In this document: one piece after another, positions 32,041 to 34,624 of the stretch
How the letters are laid out: each line of letters opens with the position of its first letter
Position numbering within the stretch: the first letter of the stretch is position 1
Translations under genes and position numbers: made by a program
Notes under the pieces: generated by a model
What the model was told of the DNA's origin: nothing
Seen by the model: the letters and a program-made list of their open reading frames with translations, nothing else
Database searches by the model: none
Source: Arcobacter sp. F2176
Lineage (GTDB): Bacteria; Campylobacterota; Campylobacteria; Campylobacterales; Arcobacteraceae
NCBI RefSeq assembly: GCF_004116465.1
Contig: NZ_PDJV01000011.1
Coordinates: forward strand, 1-64,000
Reading direction: 5' to 3'
Length of the DNA: 64,000 bases

Positions 32041-32058
32041 AACCTTGTTATTTTTTAG
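32031..32058 (+). terminator. hairpin terminator after the radical SAM gene
   Basis: AGGTTTT (32031-32037) pairs with AAAACCT (32039-32045), followed by a T-rich stretch TTATTTTTT. It overlaps the stop codon; the convergent lysine-rich gene ends 8 bases on. Confidence 0.5.
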
Positions 32059-32251
32059 ATTTTTTCTTTGAATCTTTTTTCTTAGACTTCTTTTTTGAGT
32101 TTTTTTTCTTAGCTTTTACAGCTTTTTTTGCTTTCTTTTTTTTATCTAGTTTTTTCTTTTTGATAACTTTCTTTTTCTCTTTTTTAGTTGCTTTTTTCTT
32201 AGCAGCTTTTTTAGCTTTTAATTTTTTCTCTTCTTCTTTTTTCTTTGCCAT
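32048..32251 (-). CDS. lysine-rich histone-like basic protein
   Basis: 67 residues, of which 41 are Lys (61 percent) and none Arg; the rest are mostly Ala, Glu and Ser. AAGGAG stands eight bases before the ATG, which supports translation of what would otherwise look like low-complexity sequence. The blocks AKKAAKKKATKK and SKKKSKKKDSKKK resemble the tails of histone H1-like bacterial proteins, so DNA or RNA binding is likely. It is convergent with the radical SAM gene. Confidence 0.75.
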   Translation of the reverse strand: MAKKKEEEKKLKAKKAAKKKATKKEKKKVIKKKKLDKKKKAKKAVKAKKKNSKKKSKKKDSKKKSKK

Positions 32252-32411
32252 ATTATGACTCCTTATATAAAATATAGAGAATGGTACTACTTTATATGAT
32301 TAATGTCAATAAAATATTAGTAAAATATCAAAATAATATCAATTTATAATACTTTTTAGTCTAATAAATATAATATATTAAAATACTCTTATAAATCATA
32401 GGAGTGTATTT

Positions 32412-32933
32412 ATGGGAAAAGAGCTTTCAAATATAATAGTTGATGATAAAATATTTATTATCAGAGGTATTCAAGTTATGATAGATAGAGATTTGGCTGA
32501 GTTATACCAAGTTGAAACTAAGAGATTAAATGAGCAAGTAAAAAGAAATATAAAAAAGTTTCCAAATGATTTTATGTTTCAACTAATGGATGAAGAATAA
32601 AATGAATTAGTCGCAAAATGCGACCGGTTAGAAAGATTGAAACACTCAAGTTCAAATCCATTTGTATTTACTGAACATGGTGTGTATATGCTTTCTAGTG
32701 TATTAAAAAGTAAAATAGCTATAGATGTAAGTCTATCTATCATGAGAACATTTGTTAGGTTGAAAAATCAAGCTGTGCCTTATTTTGATATTATAAAAAG
32801 ATTAGAGAAGTTAGAAACTAGTGATAAAGAGACAAGAGAACTTTTAAGTAAGGTTGTACAAGTAGTTTCAAGTATGCAAGATATTCAAGAAGAGGCTAAA
32901 GAGGGGACAAATAAGATTGGGTTTGTGAAATAA
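32412..32933 (+). pseudogene. ORF6N-domain DNA-binding protein, interrupted by one stop codon
   Basis: The first part (62 residues) contains the ORF6N signature: [29 protein letters not shown] and FPNDFMFQL. It ends at TAA (32598-32600). The same frame then continues without shift through NELVAKCDR to NPFVFTEHGVYMLSSVLKSK and a coiled C-terminus ending at 32933. A single nonsense change thus splits an otherwise complete gene of 173 codons. ORF6N proteins are phage-type regulators. A sequencing error or readthrough are alternatives. Confidence 0.85.
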
Positions 32934-32943
32934 AAGATAGCAC

Positions 32944-33510
32944 TCTCTTGAAGAGGTAAACCTCTCCGCTTTCTTACTTTGTGTGGACAAAGTAAGCAAA
33001 ACCACCAACGCTATCAAAGCCCTTTGGGTTCCCTCATTTATTATTTATCTTTTCTACCTTGCAAAACTTATATAAAAATATGCTCTATAGCATATTTATT
33101 ATATTCAAACAGTTGCAAGTCTTTTCCGAAAAGAGAAATAAACATTCGGCTTTTGCAAATGTTGGAATAAAGGTGGGATAAGGACATTTACATTTTTGAT
33201 TGAAAGCTATTCTTAACTTCTTATATTCTCAATTACTAAAAGATTGTTCAAATTATTATTAAAAAGACACCAAAGAATATTACTACATCTACAGAAGCCG
33301 AACGTTTATTTTTCTCTTTTCTAAATAAGATTGGTAACTGTCTGAGTGTTTAAAAGTTCCTAAATGGAAGTTTTAATAAACGAGTTTTACCAATCAGAAA
33401 AGATAAAAATAATAAGTGAGGGAACCTTTGGCTTCTCAGCCGTAGTTGTTTTTGCTTACTTTTCGTCAATACAAAAGTAAGAAAGCGAAGAGGTTTACCT
33501 CTTCAAGAGA
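32944..33510. repeat. 567-bp imperfect inverted-repeat element
   Basis: The left arm (32944 to about 33166) and the right arm (about 33288-33510) are inverted copies. The outer 37 bases match with one difference, and further matched blocks lie at TTCCCTCA-TTATTAT-TATCTTTTCT and at GAAAAGAGAA-AATAAAC-TTCGGCTT. Each tip also holds its own palindrome, AGAGGT-AA-ACCTCT. The central 120 bases are unpaired. It lies between the ORF6N relic and the attC-linked gene. It looks like a non-autonomous (MITE-like) element or a structured RNA. Confidence 0.8.
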
Positions 33511-33513
33511 ATT

Positions 33514-33573
33514 AAAACAACAAAATGTAGTTTTATCACGATTTTGACAAATAGGTATACATTATGTTGTTTT
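33514..33573. repeat. 16-bp inverted repeat next to the large element
   Basis: 33514-33529 and 33558-33573 match as inverted copies at 15 of 16 positions, separated by 28 bases. It abuts the right tip of the 567-bp element and may be a terminator-like hairpin or part of the same insertion. Confidence 0.5.
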
Positions 33574-33799
33574 ATTAGGTAAATACAGGGGTAAACCATA
33601 CATGAAATTTCAGAAATATGCTTTGAAAATATATCAACACAGACAAATTAAAATCAATAATTCCAAGAAAAGCTTAAATAAAGGCTTTTATTTAATATAA
33701 TAAACCAACATTTATTATGTTATAAATATCACTAATTTAAGGCTATTTTATATAAAATGTATTACTAATAAGTAGTTAGATACAAAAGGAATACGCAGA

Positions 33800-34624
33800 A
33801 TGATAGATACAATATTAAATTTTATAAATCAAGGATGGGTAGGAACGAGTATAGGTATAATTGGAATAATTATTGGAGCTATTTTATCATATAGATTTTC
33901 AATTAAAAAACCTATACCAGCTTATCAAGAACACTCTTTAGAGATTATTAGAAAAAACCAGTTAGAGTTATCAAAAGATATTAAAATATTATTTAATGAA
34001 CAACAAGTTGATAATTTAACTAAAATACAAATAGTTTTTTGGAATCATGGAACAGATACATTGAGAATAGAAAACATAGTAAAAGATGATCCTTTACTAT
34101 TTAAATTCTCACAAGATGCAATTATTTTAAGTTCTAAAATAATCAAAAAAAGTAGAGATATTAATAAGTCTTTTATCAAAAATTCAGAATCAGATTTAAA
34201 TATTGCATATTTTGGATTTGATTATTTAGACCAAAACGATGGTATTGTATTTGAAATAATACACACTGATATAAAAAGTTACCCTGAAGTAAAAGGAACA
34301 TTTAAAGGTATTCCTGAAGGTATACAGAACTTTGGTCAAGTTAATTTAAATACTAGAAAATGTACAAGTAAGTTATCATGTTTATTGACTAATAGTTCAT
34401 TCTTATTATTTTTTACTTCATTTCTGGGTATTACTATTATGCTAATGGGCATTTACCCTTCTGTATATGAAAAAATAAATTCAATTAACGATTTATTTTT
34501 TACGGGTAATACTAAAAATACATTTATTATAATTTTTGGATTCCTATATTTTATATTACCATTATTTATATTTTGGCAAAAAAGAAAAAGGTTTCCTAAA
34601 AGCTTGGTTTTAACTGATGATTAA
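33800..34624 (+). CDS. hypothetical membrane protein, possible integron cassette gene
   Basis: 274 residues. One hydrophobic segment near the N-terminus (GTSIGIIGIIIGAILSYRF, about 15-33), a soluble central domain of about 160 residues with many Asp, Lys and Ile, and two C-terminal membrane segments (about 196-216 and 236-258) ending in a basic tail. I do not recognise the family. An attC-like site begins nine bases after its stop codon, the arrangement of a gene cassette. It stands between phage-like relics and a toxin-antitoxin pair. Confidence 0.7.
   Translation: MIDTILNFINQGWVGTSIGIIGIIIGAILSYRFSIKKPIPAYQEHSLEIIRKNQLELSKDIKILFNEQQVDNLTKIQIVFWNHGTDTLRIENIVKDDPLLFKFSQDAIILSSKIIKKSRDINKSFIKNSESDLNIAYFGFDYLDQNDGIVFEIIHTDIKSYPEVKGTFKGIPEGIQNFGQVNLNTRKCTSKLSCLLTNSSFLLFFTSFLGITIMLMGIYPSVYEKINSINDLFFTGNTKNTFIIIFGFLYFILPLFIFWQKRKRFPKSLVLTDD

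Follow-up and report, generated by a model that had tools for sequence, protein, structure and literature searches.

What kind of entity is a 567-bp palindromic stretch that holds no gene? The question is posed by the window analysed here, a stretch of 64,000 nucleotides from Arcobacter sp. F2176, in which such an element adjoins an ORF6N gene that is indeed broken, as a first-pass annotation had noted, by an in-frame stop. That annotation proposed a non-autonomous transposable element, a smaller repeat present twice in opposite orientation, or a long structured RNA. On balance, we favour a large composite repeat akin to REPINs and BIMEs, probably spread by a structure-recognising enzyme supplied in trans and now likely to serve as a bidirectional terminator. 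The element appears to be new, as searches of openly licensed papers for Arcobacter MITEs, large structured repeats, the core motif and elements of REPIN type brought up no account of it; what it resembles is the REPIN type of miniature repeat.

Anatomy of the element

The palindrome described in the first-pass annotation is borne out by the sequence and by many recurrences in the same genome. The outer 37 nt (32944–32980 and 33474–33510) are complementary at 36 of 37 positions, inner blocks of 22–27 nt pair at 85%, 80% and 86%, and the 567 nt align with their own reverse complement over the full length at 69% identity. A 22-nt pattern at the tips occurs twice in the window and in none of 100 window shuffles. 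The arms, put at about 223 bases by the annotation, measure 221 nt (left) and 228 nt (right) when fitted with a covariance model; the centre is unpaired as described, and each tip carries its own small hairpin of 7 bp (Table 1). The region is also free of genes, the sole ORF noted within it (63 aa from a TTG start, 32979–33170) not being credible. The stop codon of the ORF6N gene lies 10 nt ahead of the left tip.

Table 1. Features of the two-armed element and its neighbour in the window.
Feature	Position	Strand	Details
Whole two-armed element	32944–33510	.	567 bp
Left arm (spacer-to-tip reading)	32944–33164	-	H2 loop type GUCCACAC; model R1 201.6 bits
Right arm (spacer-to-tip reading)	33283–33510	+	H2 loop type UCAAUAC; model R1 192.5 bits
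Spacer	33165–33282	.	118 nt, unpaired
Left tip hairpin H1	32950–32967	-	Inward reading (+) continues into CGCTTTCTTACTTT; terminator-like
Right tip hairpin H1	33487–33504	+	Inward reading (-) continues into CTTTCTTACTT; terminator-like (8 pairs)
Left second hairpin H2	32973–32996	-	CTTACTTT-loop-AAAGTAAG
Right second hairpin H2	33455–33481	+	CTTACTTTT-loop-AAAAGTAAG
Right-arm core	33338–33388	+	CTGTCTGAG-hairpin-GAGTTTT
Left-arm core	33064–33112	-	CTGTTTGAA-hairpin-AAGTTTT (- strand)
Broken ORF6N gene (outside the element)	32412–32933	+	In-frame stop; halves 32412–32600 and 32637–32933

It is the placement of two unlike arm types on either side of a spacer, with their tips facing out, that makes the region look like an imperfect palindrome. 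The annotation's proposal of a smaller repeat present in two inverted copies was correct, since the arm is a unit that is also found alone. The spacer of the window element is nearly identical in a second element of the same genome (L009) and in one of a sister species (L036).

Several features of the surroundings recur elsewhere. The right flank (33511–33683), which includes a 17-nt inverted repeat (33513–33574), shares homology with the flanks to the right of elements at other sites (L041 and L046 in the complete sister genome G001, L049 in G002); it may be another repeat, or a target that the elements prefer. Relatives of the ORF6N gene in G001 (L041) and G002 (L051) have an arm pair directly adjoining their 3′-end. 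A short palindrome, GGTCGCATTTTGCGACC, is found at 32609–32625, and variants of it recur beside several elements, including near L020 and L062. On the minus strand, 32048–32251 encodes a 67-aa ORF that is extremely lysine-rich, like a histone H1 tail.

Fold and covariation of the arm

The arm is a unit of ~222 nt that folds as a single strand into nine helices, on the same plan in each arm. Read from spacer to tip, it begins with a closing helix; next come a long stem that bears CUGUUUGAG-hairpin-GAGUUU and a minor side hairpin, and after these H2 and the tip hairpin H1. The closing helix differs by arm (CCAAC/GTTGG, CTAC/GTAG, CTGCC/GGCAG, CAGAC/GTCTG). A covariance model of one arm, R1, has 222 positions and 45 pairs. 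Across 33 arms, 93% of cells are paired and both sides have changed in 28 of the 45 pairs. The covariation score of this fold is 0.442, against 0.062–0.122 in controls with the partners slid. The alignment itself had served in part to draw the structure, so that these figures lean toward it. In 150 arms, whose alignment was fitted to the model, 95.3% of cells are paired and 43 of 45 pairs have changed on both sides; both this larger set and the slid control agree with the covariation result from the 33 arms. The long structure postulated by the first-pass annotation is thus supported by strong covariation within the arms. RNA and single-stranded DNA are inseparable on these data.

Among the 150 arms, the stems at the tips (helix 10) vary in sequence and keep their pairing, as would be expected if a folded strand, and not a terminal repeat in double-stranded form, is what is recognised. 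The ends conserved in aligned copies read TCTC(A/T)T(A/G)AA-hairpin-CGC. On the outward strand, G-U cells outnumber A-C cells (264 versus 100), most of the latter falling in two weak pairs and the preference being uneven across pairs; it is thus probably this strand that folds. Folding energy was also considered for the choice of strand: all 54 arms examined fold better outward, yet mononucleotide-shuffled arms keep most of the bias (mean -9.1 kcal/mol for arms, -6.3 for shuffles), and the argument was set aside because the difference is mostly one of base composition.

Copies, pairing rules and genomic position

The first-pass annotation had staked its reading on further copies within the Arcobacteraceae, and dozens were found. 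A sequence search of the F2176 genome returned 47 matching stretches, several of them full length, and BLAST gave matches in 10 of 41 genomes (this one and its relatives). Model R1, which recovers both window arms, matched at least 40 of 104 family genomes in at least 10 of 20 genera, with 43 arms in G001, and 91 loci examined over their full length contained 176 arm matches. Copy number among relatives ranges from none to dozens. Many copies occupy the same sites in three species, and so the activity may be ancient. Arcobacter sp. EP1 also belongs to the family, and the arm found in it by pattern match (L097) sits at the same place as the arm in G011 (C38). Some arms stand alone: L016, L018 and L021 begin at the closing helix and have one tip each. 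No match was obtained in the plasmid and phage collections searched.

Pairing of the arms follows strict rules. Among 69 neighbouring arm pairs (≤300 bp apart), 67 are arranged tips-outward (-/+), with spacers of 63–65 or 93–130 nt except in one overlapping match pair. Spacer sequence varies between subfamilies. Clustering of the arms assigns the partners to different types, namely types 1 and 3 in all pairs of G016 (9/9) and G107 (10/10), types 8 and 9 in G010 (6/6), and 5+7, 5+8, 7+8 or 2+10 in G001. Partners are 45–72% identical (82% in one pair), and in every genome tested this identity lies below that obtained by random re-pairing within the genome. The few pairs that share one cluster do so at 69–72% identity. 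Near-perfect long palindromes are unstable, and selection against them may perhaps explain why homotypic pairs are rare. Such strict order, fixed spacing and use of two different types mean that the pair is not a random juxtaposition.

Some copies clearly moved or were copied as whole units, as judged from the window element and L009, which have both arm types and the spacer in common and differ in their flanks. Arms have also been exchanged separately, since orthologous sites differ in their arms between species (L013 versus L037; the window element versus L041). The exact 567-bp palindrome is therefore not the conserved unit, orthologous sites in sister species holding other arm combinations. 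Independent variation of the arms, which the annotation had named as counting against its reading, is thus seen at these orthologous sites, yet the tips-outward order, the fixed spacing and the two-type pairing hold.

The elements lie close to the 3′-ends of genes. For 64 paired elements, a tip is found within 30 nt of a gene 3′-end in 25 of 76 cases and of a 5′-end in 1 of 52 (p = 8e-6); gene ends were taken from simple ORF calls, which shorten 5′ distances, and this excess is thus conservative. Only 6 of the 64 lie between divergent genes. A 1.6-kb stretch has four terminator-like sites where 0.3 would be expected, and two of the four are the tips of the window element read inward. At L040, a relative that lacks the element has a native terminator-like hairpin, AGAGAGAAAACTCTCTTTT, directly after the same stop codon. 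In decayed elements, the surviving part is the tip, or the tip with H2. These observations make bidirectional termination the most likely effect of the element on its host. A transcript arriving from either side would first meet a hairpin followed by a U-rich stretch, and the gain to the host would be at most that of a bidirectional terminator.

Mobility, alternative explanations and the wider class

Aligned copies have unrelated flanks, and in those of ~45 copies no target-site duplication was seen, the copies' ends being without a clean empty site to confirm them. Joined flanks of ~40 elements were compared with sister genomes, and none of the candidates examined was a clean empty site, each being occupied, a truncated remnant (C15 of the F2176 genome, C8 of G107, where tip remnants persist) or rearranged. 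The first-pass suggestion of a non-autonomous transposable element is accordingly plausible: the many scattered copies with unrelated flanks speak for it, and the lack of a visible target-site duplication or clean empty site limits it. A Y1 transposase was considered as an obligate mover and rejected, because its gene is distributed differently from the element: no Y1_Tnp match was obtained in 7 of the 14 genomes checked that carry the element (assemblies partly draft), that of F2176 among them. No consistent mover is thus apparent, and it may perhaps have been lost.

REPINs, or REP doublets, are scattered non-coding inverted doublets and singlets with a spacer and compensatory changes, whose hairpins are predicted in ssDNA or mRNA and which are linked to Y1-type transposases (Bertels and Rainey 2011; PMC3116915). 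The element matches this description in being a scattered, non-coding inverted doublet with a spacer, structured ends, singlets and compensatory changes. It departs from it in that its arm of nine helices makes each half about ten times larger than a REP of 16–40 nt, in combining two different arm types, and in occurring in tens rather than hundreds of copies. REPs tagged with GTAG or CGTC form head-to-head and tail-to-tail homo- and heterodimers with G-T(U) pairs in their stems, and the CGTC repeats are likewise without a known transposase (PMC3733652). The element is similarly a heterodimer of inverted units with G-T(U) pairs in its stems, whereas its conserved tip, which ends CTTCAAGAGA, carries neither a GTAG nor a CGTC tag; the tip alone is REP-sized, with a long multi-helix body behind it. 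A further, tentative likeness, judged by description, is to the intergenic repeats R178 and R200 of Pseudomonas fluorescens, which measure 100–350 bp and show a bias to tail-repeat-tail positions attributed to terminator-like stems (PMC2718517); the element is intergenic with a similar placement bias. Because it fails the unit size and the tag of REPINs and tagged REPs and has no consistent RAYT (REP-associated Y1 transposase), we regard it as kin to REPINs rather than a member.

That it is a REPIN proper moved by a RAYT is therefore quite unlikely, despite its inverted pairs, its structured ends and spacers close to REPIN lengths (PMC3116915). In one genus (G016 and G107), stretches that match the end of a transposase gene of IS200-like (RAYT) type do lie 14–72 nt from the tips of several elements, with 10 matches in 4.6 kb near tips against 2 in 44 kb farther out, and one arm lies ~100 nt from a RAYT gene. 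RAYT genes are absent from half of the carriers checked, the unit measures ~222 nt instead of 20–40, and the tip is untagged. Bacterial MITEs are short, gene-free and scattered, with terminal inverted repeats (review PMC10969869), and the element shares its size, its scattered copies, its lack of a gene and its terminal repeats (36 of 37 outer bases) with such a remnant of an internally deleted DDE insertion sequence. A classical MITE would also leave a target duplication, of which none is visible in the aligned copies; the terminal stems change in sequence and stay complementary, unlike a sequence-specific double-strand binding site; and the two-unit build with arms that also occur singly sets the element apart, which makes this origin very unlikely.

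Each arm could instead be the gene of a structured non-coding RNA, with a divergent pair sharing a promoter region in the spacer and being kept for RNA function. The extensive covariation in the arms, the excess of G-U over A-C on the outward strand, the constant spacer length and the retention of copies at the same sites in three species would all fit such a gene. We nevertheless consider it unlikely, given that promoter-like matches show no excess over shuffled sequence (10 versus 8.9), that spacer sequence differs between subfamilies, that single arms occur without partner and spacer, that relatives range from no copy to dozens, and that a covariance search of 32300–34200 against Rfam 15 gave no match up to E=1. 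There might also be no single entity at all, only ordinary intrinsic terminators that grew in place through inverted duplication or through template switching at hairpins. The tips do occupy the positions expected of terminators, and hairpin-templated copying can yield complementary changes without selection. That the same full-length arms recur genome-wide and in 10 genera, at fixed spacings and in pairs of two types, renders this account barely credible.

For the composite repeat that we favour, the folded tips, either on single-stranded DNA or on a copy in RNA, would have been what an enzyme supplied in trans recognised as it spread pairs or single arms. The RAYT-like sequence near the tips in G016 and G107 also gives this reading a link to RAYT-type biology. 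Insertions may have been favoured, or tolerated, at gene 3′-ends, and later recombination between copies could have swapped arms.

Comparable units can be found well outside the family. A scan with the core pattern CTGTTTGAGCG-(4–34)-GCGAGTTT gave at least 120 matches, and those listed include Pontibacter, Paludibacter, Polaromonas, Comamonas, Rheinheimera, Marinobacterium and many MAGs. Structure was assessed in 118 of the listed matches: a flanking stem of ≥6 bp is present in 64 (2.6% in shuffles), a downstream hairpin of ≥8 bp in 62 (7 when shuffled), and both in 44, where the hairpin is often CTTACTTTTT...AAAAAGTAAG. This is strong evidence, at the level of sequence patterns, that units in Bacteroidota and Proteobacteria share the core architecture of the arm. 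The best scores of model R1 outside the family are ≤20.5 bits (E ~0.03–1), by which common descent is not shown. We tentatively suggest that the arm may belong to an undescribed, phylum-spanning class of structured mobile units (core CUGUUUGAG-hairpin-GAGUUU, H2 ACUUU..AAAGU, terminal hairpin) whose spread depends on recognition of the fold, with the two-type, tips-outward pairing having evolved in the Arcobacter family.

Most bacterial miniature repeats are 20–200 nt long. Here, the half-unit is a ~222-nt fold under visible base-pair constraint; its orientation, its spacing and the type of its partner are strictly ordered, and half of the family's sampled genera have it, while its core architecture is also seen in distant phyla. 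The element offers a test case for what moves such repeats, a folded DNA strand or RNA, and for whether two different partners are needed, and it might supply portable bidirectional terminators. Annotators should be aware that these regions readily give spurious short ORFs.

Smaller repeats accompany the elements. A 22-bp insert, CTCAAAGAGAGTGCAAGCACAA, consisting of two mini-hairpins, follows TTTT at two different internal arm positions (arms L010, L036, L046, L051, L062 and L066) and at further places in four genomes (among them G001 C1:6436, C1:84539 and C1:3007420); it is possibly a still smaller mobile repeat. The stretch GATTGTATTGGAAATAAACTTTGAGATAATTTA is repeated ahead of several elements or solo tips (L010 in G000 C18; L038 in G001). 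RAYT-type repeats, AGTGGAGATTCATTCTCAGGGG, cluster beside the tips of L205–L223 (G016, G107); the RAYT gene in L246 has a similar 3′-end. Positions 1556–1649 of L038 hold a miniature form, tip-H2-tip, of ~90 bp.
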